From IMG/VR virus record IMGVR_UViG_3300033144_002959, positions 1 to 64,000 of that record: a stretch of DNA of 64,000 nucleotides. One strand, given 5' to 3'. The DNA is from a virus. The translations under genes and the position numbers were made by a program. Numbering within the stretch: position 1 is the first letter of the stretch; every line of letters starts with the position of its first letter. The notes beneath the pieces are model-generated. The model worked only from the letters and a program-made list of their open reading frames with translations. It was not told where the DNA came from and ran no database searches. Shown in pieces: positions 14,897-24,761 of the stretch.

Positions 14897-14925
14897 ATTA
14901 TAACATAGTGGATAACGTTTGTCAA
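14897..14925 (-). promoter_or_regulatory. Perfect-consensus sigma70 promoter
   Basis: Minus strand TTGACA (14920-14925), 17-base spacer, TATAAT (14897-14902): both boxes match the E. coli consensus exactly. It is followed by a long leader with GGAGGAAAG before 14783. Confidence 0.85.
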
Positions 14926-15091: not shown

Positions 15092-15376
15092 CTAGAGTTT
15101 CGCGATTACGTCGCGTACAAACTGCGTGAACTTATCATCAACCTCGTCAATTTCTTCCTCGTTATCGTCAATCTCGCCATCATGACGTTCAATAGCCGAA
15201 GCGTGCTGTGTCAACAGCGTCGAGGCTTCCGAATTACCGGTCACAATACTTGCAACCTCTTCCTGTACGATACCACGCACCCACGCGCCAGCTGCAAAAT
15301 ACAAAATCACCCCAGCCAACCCAGCAATAGTTGCAAGAGGTGCCGCGACTACCCGCAACGAATTAAAATAGCTCAT
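15092..15376 (-). CDS. Small membrane protein with acidic coiled coil
   Basis: 94 residues from an ATG in ATGA overlapping the collagen-like gene's stop. One transmembrane segment (LATIAGLAGVILYFAAGAWV, about 14-33), then a heptad-like acidic stretch ending DEVDDKFTQFV. Likely an inner-membrane anchor with its coiled coil in the cytoplasm or periplasm. Tight coupling suggests it acts with the collagen-like protein. Confidence 0.6.
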   Translation of the reverse strand: MSYFNSLRVVAAPLATIAGLAGVILYFAAGAWVRGIVQEEVASIVTGNSEASTLLTQHASAIERHDGEIDDNEEEIDEVDDKFTQFVRDVIAKL

Positions 15377-16200
15377 TGCTTGGTAGGTTCGGTTAGATAC
15401 GTCGCTGTCAGTTCCGTTTTCCATTCTTCACGCTCCTGTTCTTCGCGGCGCACTCGCTCCGCATTAGCGTCCAACCTAGCCTCAAGACTATCAACTCGAT
15501 CATCCACCTTCGCCACAGCATTCTCGACATTGAGCATTATTTCTTCATCTACAATCTCAAGCTGTTGCTCGGTTACGTAAACCTCAGTGACAGTAGGTTC
15601 TGGGGGTGGCGGTATTTCTTCTCGCCTTTCGGCAACAACAACCACCGGCAATTCCATATGACGCTTGCCGCCAAACTCAAACCCGACCGAGGCTTTAACT
15701 GCTGTCTCGTCGCCAGCGAAGCCAACCGCAACTGTCAGAGCTGTGTTCCGTTCGTTGTCCAGCATGTAGGCATAACCGACGCCATACCCAGACCTGTTAT
15801 TGATCCGTGACCCGCTAAAAGTAATTCGAGAAGTTTGGTCTTGTGGCAAGTGAACTTGCATGGCGGCTTCGGCTGCGGCGGCATCACGATACGACTGTAT
15901 CCACTTGTTGTGAATATTGAACGTATTATTCGTATTCGTAATCCACTCGATAGGCACTTCGCCCGGTGGGCCTTGTGGCCCCGGCGGACCCTGCTCACCG
16001 TCTTTACCATCCTGACCATCAGCACCGTCCTCACCCGGTGGACCCTGCGGTCCCGGTGGTCCCGGCTCATTGCAGTGATGTGGATTACCTTTGCAGTCCT
16101 TATCCTTGTCAGCAAAAGCCACACCGCTGGTTACAAAAAGATAAATGACCACCGCTGTCAGAGTAAAGAACAACAATTTTACACCGCCACTTAGTCTCAT
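15373..16200 (-). CDS. Secreted collagen-like/YadA-like protein
   Basis: 275 residues. An N-terminal signal peptide (LLFFTLTAVVIYLFVTSGVAFA) precedes about 11-12 Gly-X-Y triplets rich in GPPGPQGPPGE, then a segment QDQTSRITFSGSRINNRSG..VGYAYMLD that recalls YadA/trimeric-autotransporter anchor strands, and a C-terminal heptad coiled coil (VDDRVDSLEARLDANAERV). Such proteins form trimers. The start was placed at the second ATG because TGAGGGG stands six bases before it. A signal peptide is unusual for a virion protein; display on the infected or lysogenised cell surface is a reasonable inference. Confidence 0.75.
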   Translation of the reverse strand: MRLSGGVKLLFFTLTAVVIYLFVTSGVAFADKDKDCKGNPHHCNEPGPPGPQGPPGEDGADGQDGKDGEQGPPGPQGPPGEVPIEWITNTNNTFNIHNKWIQSYRDAAAAEAAMQVHLPQDQTSRITFSGSRINNRSGYGVGYAYMLDNERNTALTVAVGFAGDETAVKASVGFEFGGKRHMELPVVVVAERREEIPPPPEPTVTEVYVTEQQLEIVDEEIMLNVENAVAKVDDRVDSLEARLDANAERVRREEQEREEWKTELTATYLTEPTKQ

Positions 16201-16206
16201 GCCCAT

Positions 16207-16398: not shown

Positions 16399-16722
16399 TC
16401 ACCCGCTGCGCTCGTCACGAATAAATTTGCTGACTGCACTAACAACTTCACCGACTGCCTCGCCATGCACAAACTGTCTGCTTCCCTCTGGCGGCGGACC
16501 TGCCAGCCCTTTCAGTACTTCACCCACATTGACACCGTGTGCCAACCATCGATCATAGTGCCCCTGCATGTTTTGCGAGAAATCCAAGTACGGGTGAACC
16601 TCACCATTCGGATGCAGCCAATACTGCCACGGAATTTCATGGCGCATCAGGCAAAAGCAATCGATCACTTCGACCAACGCCGAATAGCCGGGGTTCGTCA
16701 TTCGTTCTAACCTTTCACGCAT
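16399..16722 (-). CDS. Hypothetical protein after rtcB
   Basis: 107 residues overlapping the rtcB stop by 16 bases. Centre reads LMRHEIPWQYWLHPNGEVHPYLDF, with several His/Trp/Asp, and C-terminal helix VVSAVSKFIRDE. No family recognised. A second ATG seven codons in has an equally good AAGG site, so the start is uncertain. It is co-translated with RtcB, so an RNA-repair accessory role is possible but unproven. Confidence 0.55.
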   Translation of the reverse strand: MRERLERMTNPGYSALVEVIDCFCLMRHEIPWQYWLHPNGEVHPYLDFSQNMQGHYDRWLAHGVNVGEVLKGLAGPPPEGSRQFVHGEAVGEVVSAVSKFIRDERSG

Positions 16723-17897
16723 ACCACTGCCTTCAACGTATGATGAATTTCGACCAAATCTTTTTGTGCTTCCATCACCGCATCAATATCTTTGTACGCT
16801 GCCGGAGATTCATCGAGCATATCTTTATCCTTGCGACACTCTACGCCTTCCGTTGCCTTTGCATGATCCTCCAGCGTGATCGTTTTCTTGGCCTCCGTAC
16901 GTGACATACGACGACCGGCACCGTGGCTGCACGAGTCCAGAGAATTAGGCGTCTGATCTGTGCCCTTCACAATGTAACTCTTCGCACCCATTGAACCGGG
17001 AATAATCCCGTACGTATCCGGGGCGCATCGCACCGCACCTTTGCGCGTGACCCACAACGGAGTGCCGAAATGATTTTCCTGATTCACGTAATTGTGGTGA
17101 CAGTCAATCGCTGCCCCGGAAATCAGCATGTCAGAAAAGTTCTCCAGCATCGCATCCAGCACCAGTGACACCATCACCGCCCGGTTGCTAAACGCATAGC
17201 TCTGCGCCCACTGCACCGCATACACGTAATCATTGAACAGCTTCGTATTAGCAGTCAGGTACGCAAGGTCTTTGTCAGGTAGATTTATATCCAACCGCAA
17301 CATATCTTCTTTGGCCTTCTGAATAAAATACCGGCCAATGATGTTGCCGATGCCCCGGCTCCCTGAGTGCAGCATCACCCAAACCATATCCTCTTCGTCC
17401 AAACACACTTCGATAAAATGGTTCCCGCCGCCCAGCGTCCCAGTTTGAAATCGACACTTGTCCCACGGGTTGCCCTTGATCATAGTCTTAACCTTGGGAT
17501 GCGCCGACATAATGTGACTCAAGCCTTTCAGGTACGCATCATCCTTCACGTATCTCGGACGCTCGCTATGCTGATTAAACCCCACCGGCACCCGCTCTTC
17601 GATTGCTGAGCGCACTGCGCTAAGACTATCCGGCAACCAGCTGGCTTGAATGTTTGTACGTACCGCCAACATGCCGCAACCAATATCGACGCCAACAGCA
17701 GCCGGGATCACCACGTCTTTGGTCGCGACCACCGAGCCAACTGTCGCACCGATTCCCCAATGCACGTCTGGCATCACGCAAATCGCCTTAACGAAATCTA
17801 GGCTGGCCATATTCATTACCTGATCCCGAGCCTGATCTTCAAACTCAACCCCGTTCGCCCACGACCGTACCTTGCCCTCAAAAAATTCTTTGTACAT
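16707..17897 (-). CDS. rtcB: RtcB RNA-splicing/repair ligase
   Basis: 396 residues with all hallmark motifs of RtcB: MPDVHWGIGATVGSV, DIGCGM (metal-binding Cys), GTLGGGNHFIE, HSGSRGIG, HNYV, PGSMG, and CSHGAGRRMSR with the guanylylated His. The enzyme joins 2',3'-cyclic phosphate or 3'-phosphate ends to 5'-OH RNA using GTP and Mn2+. In a phage it may repair tRNAs cut by host anticodon nucleases. The phage also carries two tRNAs and a large noncoding RNA region nearby. Confidence 0.95.
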   Translation of the reverse strand: MYKEFFEGKVRSWANGVEFEDQARDQVMNMASLDFVKAICVMPDVHWGIGATVGSVVATKDVVIPAAVGVDIGCGMLAVRTNIQASWLPDSLSAVRSAIEERVPVGFNQHSERPRYVKDDAYLKGLSHIMSAHPKVKTMIKGNPWDKCRFQTGTLGGGNHFIEVCLDEEDMVWVMLHSGSRGIGNIIGRYFIQKAKEDMLRLDINLPDKDLAYLTANTKLFNDYVYAVQWAQSYAFSNRAVMVSLVLDAMLENFSDMLISGAAIDCHHNYVNQENHFGTPLWVTRKGAVRCAPDTYGIIPGSMGAKSYIVKGTDQTPNSLDSCSHGAGRRMSRTEAKKTITLEDHAKATEGVECRKDKDMLDESPAAYKDIDAVMEAQKDLVEIHHTLKAVVCVKG

Positions 17898-19503: not shown

Positions 19504-19645
19504 TCACACACAAAAAAAGAGAGAGAAGCATCGTCGCCTCAAATTGAAAAGTCTCTCGGCTTGTTACGGCTACCCCGCAATCCCGCGCCCATTGCTACTT
19601 GGCTGTTGGGTTCAGCACGATTTATCTACGGTGCCGAGAAACAAT
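19504..19645 (-). other. Leader between promoter and zinc-ribbon gene
   Basis: About 140 bases without a convincing gene. It contains GAGAGAC matched by GTCTCTC-like blocks and ends with CTTCTCTCTC followed by seven T, which could act as an attenuator, and a 17-codon frame beginning ATGGGCGCGGGATTG without a good ribosome site. Confidence 0.35.
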
Positions 19646-19648
19646 AAT

Positions 19649-19677
19649 AGTATGCCACTCTGGCACACGTCTGTCAA
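19649..19677 (-). promoter_or_regulatory. Sigma70-like promoter
   Basis: Minus strand TTGACA (19672-19677), 17-base spacer, CATACT (19649-19654). It begins three bases past the CCA end of tRNA-Tyr and drives the small-gene/RtcB region. Confidence 0.75.
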
Positions 19678-19680
19678 ATA

Positions 19681-19765
19681 TGGTGGAGCAGGGAGGATTC
19701 GAACCTCCGACCTCTAGGGTGCCACGGGATTACAGCCCGACCGATTACCACTCTCGCACCGCTCC
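19681..19765 (-). tRNA. tRNA-Tyr (GTA)
   Basis: Minus strand acceptor GGAGCGG/CTGCTCC, discriminator A, encoded CCA. Anticodon loop CTGTAAT gives GTA. A long variable arm and T-arm GGTTCGAATCC match bacterial class II tRNA-Tyr. It is the last element of the long transcript expected from promoter 23363-23391, so it would need processing from a precursor. Confidence 0.93.
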
Positions 19766-19925
19766 AATCGAATTCAAGAGCGGGGTTCCGGCAACACCGG
19801 CACCCCCCGCAATCTGCACCGGCATCAGCCTTACGGTTTCAAACCGCTTCGACCATCCGTCGTCTGTACTTCGTTTCGTGTTGCCACGATTCCTTGGCCT
19901 AATCATTCCCTGAATGGCATAGTCT

Positions 19926-19942
19926 CTCAGCATTATGCTGAG
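19926..19942 (-). other. 7-bp hairpin beside a tiny frame
   Basis: Minus strand CTCAGCA-TAA-TGCTGAG. Upstream, TAGGAGAACGAC precedes ATG AAA AAC GCC TCA GCA TAA, a six-codon frame whose stop falls in the hairpin loop, and a second frame of 62 codons starts at the overlapping ATG and runs into tRNA-Tyr. This is either a leader peptide or part of the RNA fold. Confidence 0.35.
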
Positions 19943-20040
19943 GCGTTTTTCATGTCGTTCTCCTATCTGAAATTTTGAATTGCGCTCGCAACACTTATCG
20001 CGAAAGTTTCGAGGTACTTGGTACCTTGGCAAACGCAAAT

Positions 20041-20095
20041 CAAAAAGGACCGCAGCGCTTCTCTGCACAAAAGTGCGCAACCACTGACCTGCGGT
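20041..20095 (-). terminator. Terminator-like double hairpin in ncRNA region
   Basis: Minus strand: GACCGCA, an inner hairpin around GCGCACTTTTGTGC, then TGCGGTC followed by CTTTTTG. It may end the 3.3-kb RNA before the tRNA-Tyr segment, or be an internal domain or attenuator. Confidence 0.5.
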
Positions 20096-20696
20096 CAAAC
20101 TAAAATTTGGTCGATATGCAAAGCCTGTAGCAAACTTTGCACACTTCGGGCTTCCCACCCGCTTGCTGCTTCACGGTTCGTACGCTGTCCGGGCACCCGT
20201 TTTTCGCCAGTGCTTCCCGGTCCCTGCCCTCGCCTTTTTCATGACATAGAACAGCGCAACCCCTTTACCATATAGCCAGTTCGATCCTGTCGGGATAGAC
20301 ACTACATCGAATTTAATTCATGTGGTCAAGCTACCCTGATCACCACACAAAAGGCTTTTCAATTCATGCCGGTGATATCACTCGCCGGAAAGCGCCGCAG
20401 TTCCTTAGTATTTATATACCGGGACAAGTGCGGAAAGCACCCGGAATTTTGAGAAACACTCTCCGAAGAAAGCGCTTTTCAAATTGATCGAACACTTCGC
20501 TAACGGCCAGTACGGGAGGAATTAAAGCGGGGGTTTATTGAAATTTCGGCAGAACGCCAAAAACATTTGGCCTACAATTAAAGAGTTCAATCTTCAAAAA
20601 GATAACGGCTCGATTTTATAGAACTAGCAACCCTGCACTTTCGTGTTTTACGGGAAAAAGTTTACGCTTCAGTTCATATCGAACCGTTCAAAATTG

Positions 20697-20735
20697 GGGA
20701 GTTCTTACTTTATATTTTACTTGGCAGTCGAACCC
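20697..20735 (-). repeat. Duplicated RNA motif, copy A
   Basis: Minus strand GGGTTC-GACTGC-N5-AAAATATAAAGTAAG-AACTCCC. The same order recurs at 21612-21649; flanking stems differ but still pair. Confidence 0.6.
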
Positions 20736-21583
20736 TAAATCACTCCAAGTTTTTTTCGAACAATGGGGAGTTAATTCCATCCGAACGAGTGGCTTATCGC
20801 ATATGTCCACCTACGGGTCATGGTCTCGCTATCGTCATGCGCCCTGCTCTCGTATGCGGGGAACGAAGGATTTTCAACCCTGCCCTCAACAGGAACGATC
20901 ATGTCGGCGTCGCGCCGGAGTCGGTTTTGTCGTTTGACTACCTACGTCATTCTGGGTTTCTGAAACTCTTTATCGTTGGGAATGAGTACCAACTAGCCTG
21001 CTCCAAGGCCGGTGAACTTAACGCTGTTCTCTTACGCCATGATTATCGGCAGAGAGCCGATCACATGGTTCACACCACTTTGAAAATTCGAAGCGGAGGT
21101 CAATTCTATTTACCCAGCTACTATTGCAAGCTGGCCTTGTGAGGATCGCTGACTCCGCCCAGCGATGGCGGTACATATTTGCTTTGTGAAATGTTCGGAA
21201 CTGAGTGATCGAACACGCTGTCTTTCAAGCGTGTCGTCGTGACTGAGTCACTGTTTAATTTACTGGTGATCAAACCAGCAGGCGACAACTGCGCCATGTT
21301 CCAAACACTTTACAAAAATCTCTACTCGCGATTGGTCAACCGCATCGCATCCCACCGAGCTAAGGGCCAGCTTTTTCGTCTGGCCTTGTTGGCAGGCTCG
21401 ATATCGTCCTGCCTCACTCGCCACGCCGGGTTAGTCCCCCGGTCCAGCCTCGTCCGTTGTATCAACGAGTAGAGTTAAAATGGTTGGTAGTTGTATAAGC
21501 ACGGATACCAGCCGCCGCGATCTTTTTGCTGACGCTAACAGTGACAAGTTGCATCGTTTATATACCGGAGCCTTGTACCCGGT

Positions 21584-21599
21584 GTCCAATCAATTGGAC
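21584..21599. repeat. 16-bp near-palindrome, CA centre
   Basis: Exact GTCCAATCAATTGGAC within the noncoding region, just downstream (minus strand) of duplicated motif copy B. Confidence 0.75.
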
Positions 21600-21611
21600 A
21601 GTTTTCAATTT

Positions 21612-21649
21612 GGTCCCTTACTTTATATTTTGCGTCGCAGTCGGGAACC
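21612..21649 (-). repeat. Duplicated RNA motif, copy B
   Basis: Minus strand GGTTCCC-GACTGC-N5-AAAATATAAAGTAAG-GGACC. It shares a 15-base core and GACTGC with copy A at the same spacing, while the outer pairs change together. Confidence 0.6.
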
Positions 21650-22946
21650 ACTCGACGTTTTGGATATCCGCGCTACTGTATCAAAATAGGGCGGCGCGTA
21701 TTCTAATCAGGTACGCCCCGCTAAGAACTTTTTTGGTCATCTTAGAAACCACCCTAACGACTCACGTGGGACGTGCCGCACTGACATAGTCAGTGAACTA
21801 TCAAAATTCGTGAGCGGATACAGGAGACTGGCGAGTTGTCAGCCCGGTCGATTCTGTCACTCCGCTCGGAGCGTGCGATTAAAGTCCGCAACCCTCAAAT
21901 TCTATTAGCATAAATTCGATTCATAACGCCATCAATCACTGCCTCACGGTCTGGACATAAGTGATTTCATCTTTTGATCAAGTACCGGTTTTTAGGCCGT
22001 TCAATTTATCGACTCGATCAATGTGTTGGCGATCAAACGCTGCGCGGGCTTGGGCCTCATCGGCTATTACCCTCTTCCTGTTTGCCCGCTCTTATACGGG
22101 TTCTTGTTTTTTTTGCGGCTTACTAACATTCCCTATGGTCGCTAAACCTTTAAGGCGGAAATGACCTCAACCATCTAACAGCTTTGCAGCGATTATCACG
22201 CTTTATGCTTATCAAAAGTCACTACCGATGGTGAGTCGATTTACTCCGCCAGCAGCCTTCGAACTTCACAGCCGAAAACTTAGTTTTGAACAACTCAAAG
22301 AGCCGAACAAAATGTTGGTCGATTTACTACGCTTACAGCCAACAGCGTCACCGCCATTGACTTAGTCAATAGAAACTTCTGAAAAACAATTATGCTTTGT
22401 GATGCACTCCGCGTTACTCGTTACTCAAGTGGCCCTCTCACTTCAGCCCAATGGTCTTTCCACCATCGTTGAACCCTTTCAAGTTCCAGCTTACTAACTC
22501 TGCGACATGGCCCGCGATGCCCGACCTTATTGCTCACAAGACGATTCTTTCGAAACCCTTGCATACCCGAATTACACGGCGGCGGTCAAACGTAAATGCC
22601 TGACTCAACCCGATTACTCGGAAGCCAGTGAATCTCTTTGCAAGACCAATCATCCGGTGCTACCCGGTCCAAAGATCGAACACGTTGATTCCTGCCACAT
22701 CCTGATTTTACGCAGGAGTGATTGCCCTGATCATTAACGACTAACGTGTCAACGTCAGCAAACGCTAACAATCGGAATACATCAAAAAGCATATCCGCCA
22801 CACTTGGCAAGCACTCTATAATTTTACGATGGGAATTTTTCTCCCTTTACCCTCTCGGTGTGACCGATGGCAGTACGTTTGATTGAACCGCTATGGTAAA
22901 TGCTCGCTTGAGCATTGCAGCCGTTAGTCTGCGAAGCCGGGAACAT

Positions 22947-22991
22947 ACTCACCGTTCGATTCGAACGAACAGCATCCATTTCTGGGTGAGT
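22947..22991 (-). ncRNA. tRNA-like acceptor/T-arm element
   Basis: Minus strand ACTCACC, a 14-base linker, GTTCG-TTCGAAT-CGAAC, then GGTGAGT. The 7-bp outer helix and 5-bp arm with a seven-base TTCGAAT loop match a tRNA acceptor stacked on a T-arm, with D- and anticodon arms missing. No CCA follows. Confidence 0.5.
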
Positions 22992-23362
22992 AGTTTTGTA
23001 TCGGTAGCCCACCATCCTTACCAGCAACTATTTCTCAACGCGCTTCAGTTAAACAACTTCTTTAACCAGCTACATATATCGTCATAGCGCTTCAGTAAAG
23101 ACAGTGCCCGTAACCACTAGAACCGATCAAGTATTAAGACCAGTTCAATCAATTAGCAAGAGCGCTGCAAGGTGCAGCGGAAATTTGCTTTTCAATTTGA
23201 GACGACGGAAGTCCCGCACAGCTGCCGGATTGGATACCGGGCGGTTCTGATTGGGGCCGAAGCCTCTCTCTCTGGGCCGGTTAAGGTTCCTCTCCAGATT
23301 CCCTGTCTGTCAGGCCCTTTCGGGAGCGGGGAATTTTTTCTATCTTCTCATCCCACAAGTAT

Positions 23363-23391
23363 ATTATCTCATAGTGGGGCACGTTTGTCAA
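23363..23391 (-). promoter_or_regulatory. Strong promoter of the noncoding RNA region
   Basis: Minus strand TTGACA (23386-23391), 17-base spacer, GATAAT (23363-23368). 32 of 33 bases match the tRNA-His promoter region. No gene start follows. The 115 bases between it and dnaB (23392-23507) hold nothing recognisable. Confidence 0.85.
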
Positions 23392-23507
23392 ATTGTAGGG
23401 GGGTTTTCGTCAACTAAATAGTGACAATAATCAAGCACTTATACGATTTATTTCCACGTGCCTTCAAAAAGCACACGTAAAGCACTGAAATGGAGACTTT
23501 TTTGGCC

Positions 23508-24761
23508 TTAAACGTACACGAATTCGTCGGCTGAGGTCTCAGGTAGAATCTCGCTGAAGTCCATGAACGGGGGCGCATCGAAAATCCAGTTGATATAAAA
23601 TTCCATCTGCCCAGCGTCGCGAGCTTTGAGGATATCGACTTTCTTTTTAACGACGTATTCAATACTGCCAACTTCCTTTTCGTACAGCGCCAGAACACAA
23701 CTGCAAATTTGTCCGATAGCATCCGAGCCGCCGATGTTCTCCAGCTCTTTTTCTTTCGCGCCTTTCTTGTTGAACTGGTAGCTCAGCACACACGGAATAT
23801 TCAGCCGGGTCGATACGTCTGACTTGATTGTTTCCAGCGACTCCGCTACCCGCTCGTATCGCTTCGCGTATTTGTCATCGGTCTTCAACAGGTACGCGCC
23901 ATCGATATACAACACGTCCGGTTTCATCTGGTGCACGAGCATTTGAATGTCCTGAACTCTTGCAGTCAGGTTGCCATCGATGATCCAGAATTTATCGTGG
24001 GTGCCCTCCAATGCCGCCATGTCTGTGAGGATTTTCTTGTGTTTCTTTTTTAGAATCTCACCGCGCCTGAGCAGGGTGATCGAAAGTTTTTGGTGCATTG
24101 CCGTGATGCGTTGAATAAGCGGCAGCGGTTTCATTTCCATCGACACGAACATGACTCGCTTATTTTGTTTGTGCCATGCGTGGTGTGCCATTCTCAACAG
24201 CTGATAAGTTTTACCTTGCCCCGGCCTGCCGACGATTGCCATCACGTCGCCGCCGCGTAAACTCCCAATCATTCCGTCGAGTGTCGGATACCCAGTCAGC
24301 ACACCGGGCAGCAAGTGCCCTTTGTTAAGCATCTGAAATTCGGCATCAATAATGTCCGGGCCATCGGTCGCGTAATCCATGATCTGATTCATCGACGTTC
24401 GGGTTGTGATGTTAACCATCATTTCGCGAAACAAATCCAACGCCGCTTCGGGATTCTTTTCGGCCAACTCGATCTGTGCACCTTTCATTGCAGACACAAT
24501 GGTGCGATGCGTGAACCGCTTCACGACATCATCGAAATAATACTCGGGGGTCTCCAGCCCATCGGGCACTTCCATGATCCCGCATGTCTGCGGTTTTGGC
24601 AGTGATCCGTATTTGGCTAAGTGCCCTTGAATCTCATCATATAATTCTAACTCTGGTCCCCGAAACAAACCTTCATGGATGCCCATCCCGAGATACTTTT
24701 CGGTTCCTTTGGGGTCAACCAATAGGCTTGTCAGGAATCGCTTCCCTGACAATACCGCCAC
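23508..24761 (-). CDS. dnaB: Replicative DNA helicase (DnaB-like)
   Basis: 417 residues. A small N-terminal domain precedes the RecA-like core: Walker A VGRPGQGKT (about 178-186), RVMFVSMEMK (motif 1a), Walker B DVLYIDGAYLL, and CVLSYQFNKKG..IGGSDAIGQ (motifs 3 and 4). It unwinds the fork as a ring hexamer with the primase at 12801-13775. It follows the gene at 24776-25303 by 14 bases. Confidence 0.9.
   Translation of the reverse strand: MAVLSGKRFLTSLLVDPKGTEKYLGMGIHEGLFRGPELELYDEIQGHLAKYGSLPKPQTCGIMEVPDGLETPEYYFDDVVKRFTHRTIVSAMKGAQIELAEKNPEAALDLFREMMVNITTRTSMNQIMDYATDGPDIIDAEFQMLNKGHLLPGVLTGYPTLDGMIGSLRGGDVMAIVGRPGQGKTYQLLRMAHHAWHKQNKRVMFVSMEMKPLPLIQRITAMHQKLSITLLRRGEILKKKHKKILTDMAALEGTHDKFWIIDGNLTARVQDIQMLVHQMKPDVLYIDGAYLLKTDDKYAKRYERVAESLETIKSDVSTRLNIPCVLSYQFNKKGAKEKELENIGGSDAIGQICSCVLALYEKEVGSIEYVVKKKVDILKARDAGQMEFYINWIFDAPPFMDFSEILPETSADEFVYV

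Follow-up and report, generated by a model that had tools for sequence, protein, structure and literature searches.

To our knowledge only a few structured RNAs of phages exceed 800 nt, and what they do is an open question. The closest described relatives in kind of the locus considered here are GOLLD and ROOL, which we take to be the Rfam families RF02032 and RF03087, respectively. GOLLD, found in phages and prophages, is a large structured RNA with pseudoknots that often lies near tRNAs and sometimes has them inside it. ROOL, likewise from phages and prophages, lies close to tRNA islands and has several pseudoknots. Both RNAs are of unknown function and form RNA-only cages (PMC12286853).

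The window analysed here is a stretch of 64,000 nt from a metagenomic virus record (IMGVR_UViG_3300033144_002959). Within it, a block of about 3.7 kb without recognisable coding sequence (19766-23507) lies between a minus-strand gene for a DnaB-like replicative helicase (23508-24761; PHROG 19, E 4e-41), which is upstream, and a minus-strand tRNA-Tyr with a GUA anticodon and an encoded CCA (19681-19765). The absence of a known gene, the folding scores and the lack of an Rfam family together suggest a structured noncoding RNA of about 3.6 kb (19766-23355, minus strand), which would hold all copies of the module described below. How does this candidate compare with the RNAs already described? As with GOLLD, the block is in a phage and adjoins a tRNA on the same strand (tRNA-Tyr, 19681-19765), and as with ROOL a tRNA neighbourhood is combined with pseudoknots, here predicted ones. 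In contrast, neither Rfam covariance model is matched, the block is far longer (about 3.6 kb against about 800 nt for GOLLD, with ROOL at about 660 nt), and the account consulted reports no such repeated module in GOLLD (PMC12286853). A cmscan search of 19600-23550, at the gathering score and at E 5, returned only the tRNA and two chance matches. Setting and size class thus make GOLLD and ROOL the closest kind of RNA to the block, but since no Rfam model matches, it is filed under neither, and the evidence points to a large, unclassified structured RNA.

The open frames in the block are short, and ten that were tested gave no convincing PHROG match (best E 0.07). Six-frame fragments of the block compared with neighbouring phages found no relatives, whereas a dnaB fragment used as a positive control was found. 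A minus-strand open frame of 137 aa (19745-20158), which overlaps the end of the tRNA and is without relatives, is probably spurious, though it may be coding. On its minus strand the block has a lower mean folding z-score than any other stretch of its size in the 64 kb (-0.98 against -0.26, Mann-Whitney P 0.003; -1.44 against -0.39 and -0.65 in another window phase), and the value is lower on this presumably transcribed strand than on the opposite one. The base composition of the block is that of the genome, and its short-repeat content is above that of shuffles but not above that of other windows of the same genome. Three minus-strand sites of the block (20495, 21216 and 22683) read GTGTTCGATC, which resembles the T-loop sequence of tRNA.

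A sigma-70-like promoter, TTGACA-17-GATAAT with a TG extension, is located just after dnaB (23363-23391, minus strand). Promoter-like sites across the block are no commoner than in shuffles, so the weight of this one rests on its position. With a limit of two mismatches and 250 nt after the dnaB stop, such a promoter is present in 8 of 17 dnaB relatives as against 10 of 300 random stretches, and in a ninth relative (L132) it overlaps the dnaB end. It immediately precedes a tRNA in both L132 (tRNA-Gly) and L159 (tRNA-Tyr), the order in L159 being dnaB, the TTGACAAACG promoter, tRNA-Tyr and a second promoter. The window has this same order and the same TTGACAAACG, with the 3.6-kb block lying between promoter and tRNA-Tyr, and the simplest reading is that a large RNA has been inserted into, or has grown within, a tRNA transcription unit. 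The transcript probably extends into tRNA-Tyr, and a single long noncoding transcript passing through this tRNA seems likely.

Within this predicted transcript a module of 55 bases, which would fold as an RNA pseudoknot, is present twice, with a copy-to-copy separation of 913 bp. An earlier sequence-only reading had claimed a duplicated motif consisting of GACTGC, a variable 5-base spacer and a 15-base core, and the window does contain exactly two copies of GACTGC-N5-AAAATATAAAGTAAG, both on the minus strand (copy A, 20704-20729; copy B, 21617-21642), with a match in none of 100 dinucleotide shuffles of the window. The core has no further occurrence elsewhere in the 93.7-kb virus record. The likeness between the copies stops at the edges of the pseudoknots, the 120 nt on each side being at the level of random pairs; a longer duplication around the copies was rejected on this ground.

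The same reading held that the outer sequences differ between the copies and still pair, and its letters are correct. In copy A, GGGUUC (20730-20735) pairs with GAACUC (20699-20704) in 6 bp that include one G-U, and in copy B, GGUUCCC (21643-21649) pairs with GGGACC (21612-21617) in 6 bp with one bulged U; this is helix S2. The earlier reading did not state the minus strand and ended before two upstream segments (20742-20750 and 21650-21658). In both copies the upstream sequence reads AAAAC-NNN-GAGUG, where NNN is UUG in copy A and GUC in copy B, and the spacer holds the complements, CAA and GAC, respectively. A second helix, S1, is drawn from these segments. In copy A ACUUGGAGU (20742-20750) pairs with ACU-G-CCAAGU (20719-20728), which includes the supposed variable spacer CAAGU, with one bulged G, while in copy B ACGUCGAGU (21650-21658) pairs with ACU-G-CGACGC (21632-21641). 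Here the bulged G is kept, and by comparison with copy A there are two double compensatory changes and only the terminal A-U pair is lost. Because the loop of S1 contains the 5' strand of S2, whose 3' strand comes after the core, the two helices interleave as an H-type pseudoknot. Thus the stem with compensatory changes stands, whereas the plain hairpin in which it had been drawn gives way to a pseudoknot in which the spacer pairs upstream. Of the three loops, L1 is GAUUUA in copy A (20736-20741), 6 nt as against 0-1 nt in copy B, L2 is a single G (20729 and 21642) and L3, AAAAUAUAAAGUAA, is 14 nt long, A-rich and identical in the two copies (20705-20718 and 21618-21631).

Two interleaved helices with covariation, as expected of an H-type pseudoknot, are found here in two paralogous copies only, and it is on these that covariation was measured. 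In the two-copy alignment 96.3% of the pairing cells pair as drawn, against 20-41% when the partners are slid by 1-3 columns, and four pairs have changed on both sides; placing the bulged U of copy B manually instead of leaving it to MAFFT adds a fifth. The covariation is equalled in 28 of 500 shuffles of the letters within pairs, which is about the floor for two sequences. When flanks are taken at random from the same block, 0.28% of trials yield a full S1 and 2.1% an S2 with 6 bp or more, values that serve as description and not as formal P values because S1 was found by inspection; both copies have both helices. S1 is formed in none of the 63 IMG/VR stretches that carry GACTGC-N(3-7)-AAAATATAAAG, so the sequence alone does not entail the pairing. 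An unbiased scan for pseudoknots with an A-rich L3 places copies A and B among the top eight, and the block as a whole contains 23 H-type candidates against 22 in shuffles, that is, no excess. The proposal that a constant core combined with compensatory stem changes marks a selected RNA structure is therefore upheld, with covariation extending to the spacer, by the two paralogous copies and their context, and the module is very likely to be a selected RNA pseudoknot. Duplication inside the RNA, which had also been proposed, gains support from the position of both copies within one predicted transcript.

Could each copy instead be a plain hairpin, made up of S2 and an ACU/AGU pairing around a 16-nt loop, with the upstream pairing being incidental? 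The inner ACU of S1 can alternatively pair with an AGU inside L3 to give such a hairpin, both triplets are invariant, and RNAfold, which cannot draw pseudoknots, gives this fold, with S2, for copy B. For copy A, given wide context, the same program gives S1, and the two choices are two halves of the same fold. A hairpin leaves the compensating changes of spacer and upstream segment in both copies unexplained, and the rarity of a full S1 in random draws also argues against it, making this an unlikely account.

The two sites might also act as DNA, either as operators or as parts of a replication origin, with a phage protein binding the A/T-rich core. They are near dnaB and the gene for a DnaD-like loader, the A/T-rich core is invariant and GTGTTCGATC recurs in the block, all of which would suit such a role. 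However, an operator has no need of a pair of overlapping helices with compensatory changes, the copies are 913 bp apart and missing from the rest of the record, and the strand bias in the folding z-score favours a transcribed element, so a purely DNA-level role is quite improbable.

A further possibility is that the block is decayed or mis-assembled DNA in which the pairing is coincidental. Homologues are absent and dnaB relatives carry genes in this place, as decay or mis-assembly would predict, but the composition fits the genome, promoter and tRNA-Tyr flank the block as they do in L159, no trace of the relatives' proteins is found with the positive control working, and the pairing is far above chance. 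Decay or mis-assembly is, on this evidence, very improbable, and a decayed-gene reading in particular was rejected for want of protein relatives.

Small pseudoknots of similar topology are familiar from other settings. The preQ1-I and SAM-II aptamers are H-type pseudoknots with an A-rich third loop, and the type III antitoxins (ToxI, TenpI and CptI) consist of pseudoknots that recur within a single transcript of a phage or plasmid, as short units in tandem ahead of a toxin gene; tRNA-Tyr and tRNA-His are queuosine tRNAs. That the module is a riboswitch-like ligand-binding aptamer or a type III antitoxin is scarcely probable, since, although it has the H-type topology and A-rich third loop of preQ1-I and SAM-II and is repeated, as antitoxins are, within one putative transcript of a virus that encodes tRNA-Tyr and tRNA-His, no Rfam family matches 20600-21800 even at E 10, the module is neither before a gene start nor in a metabolic-gene leader, its S1 is longer and has a bulged G, its copies are 913 nt apart rather than in tandem, no ToxN-like or other toxin was found among the neighbours with Pfam and PADLOC, and PADLOC identified no neighbouring defence or toxin protein bar one weak helicase-domain match. 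What is shared with these RNAs is thus the topology of the fold and not the context.

The preferred reading, to which we give a probability of roughly 0.6, is that an H-type pseudoknot is used twice inside one long noncoding phage RNA. Transcription would start after dnaB, at about 23355, and proceed along the minus strand for some 3.6 kb until it enters tRNA-Tyr, where 5' processing of the tRNA by RNase P would leave the 3' end of the RNA. With less confidence, the A-rich L3 may lie in the minor groove of S1, and each pseudoknot may act as a rigid unit, so that an identical contact, either RNA-RNA docking or a single bound protein, is formed at two sites of a large folded RNA comparable to GOLLD and ROOL, which are likewise linked to tRNAs. 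That the module serves twice for docking or for protein binding within such an RNA is proposed only tentatively. Bolder, and rather doubtful, is the suggestion that the locus represents a new class of structured phage RNA of very large size (about 3.6 kb, several times the length of GOLLD), inserted between a post-dnaB promoter and tRNA-Tyr, in which A-rich pseudoknots would be reused as building modules and would dock the RNA into a large particle. A candidate of about 3.6 kb with a defined repeated module would widen the size range of structured phage RNAs, and two copies of one pseudoknot offer an internal control for probing that is absent in single-copy ornate RNAs.

The full motif was not found in scans of IMG/VR, and its sole match in GTDB genomes, which falls at the 3' end of a gene for a substrate-binding protein, was set aside as chance; the 15-mer core alone gives at least 120 matches in IMG/VR, which were discounted, nearly all being within open frames. 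A covariance model found no module in 44 related or candidate records or in 54 RtcB-neighbour loci, and blastn of the whole block against phages and plasmids gave tRNA matches only, among the matches listed. Neither block nor module is present in any relative found via DnaB and RtcB, and in the dnaB relatives genes follow dnaB instead of the block. Among IMG/VR contigs the closest DnaB is at most 42% identical and the closest RtcB at most 57%; as this phage is without a close relative in these collections, the missing homologues say little about the spread of the RNA.

Two weak candidates for divergent copies are found in the block on the minus strand. Candidate C (20401-20444) would combine CCGGG/CCCGG and UUCC/GGAA with an L3 of UAUAUAAAUACUAA, and candidate D (21544-21583) ACCGGG/(U)CCGGU and ACAAG/CUUGU with an L3 of AUAUAAACGAUGCAA. 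Each of the block's four ATATAAA sites on the minus strand can be drawn as such a pseudoknot, and these four rank above the other eight sites of the window; the planted-site null gives P of about 0.13 for C and about 0.06 for D, and neither is recovered by covariance model R1, so that C and D are at best weakly suggested as further copies of the module. The CCGGTATATAAA pattern of these candidates has mostly coding matches in IMG/VR, with three in tRNA-bearing non-coding stretches. A non-coding stretch of a 103.7-kb phage contig (L210, 3225-3270, minus strand) has tRNA-Ser on the same strand; its CCGGTATATAAATGCCTAGGAA resembles candidate C at 86% across 22 nt, and an S2 of 6 bp may form. Two large phage contigs of 141.9 and 146.1 kb (L231, 5945-6025, minus strand; L244, 6420-6503, plus strand) share an 84-nt element, 89% identical, in tRNA-rich, ORF-poor regions. 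This element, which is on the strand of the tRNAs, contains CCGG...CCGGTATATAAA and GCGG/CCGC, from which a pseudoknot might be built, and is possibly another unclassified tRNA-array RNA.

Close to tRNA-Tyr is a gene for an RtcB-like RNA ligase (16707-17897, minus strand). A Septu defence is reported to cleave tRNA-Tyr (PMC13096335), and tRNA-Tyr together with RtcB could on this basis act in counter-defence. Further along the same strand, 15373-16206 encodes a collagen-like GPPG-repeat protein with tail-fibre PHROG matches and an apparent N-terminal signal or membrane segment, and 14897-14925 is a perfect consensus promoter, TTGACA-17-TATAAT with a TG extension.
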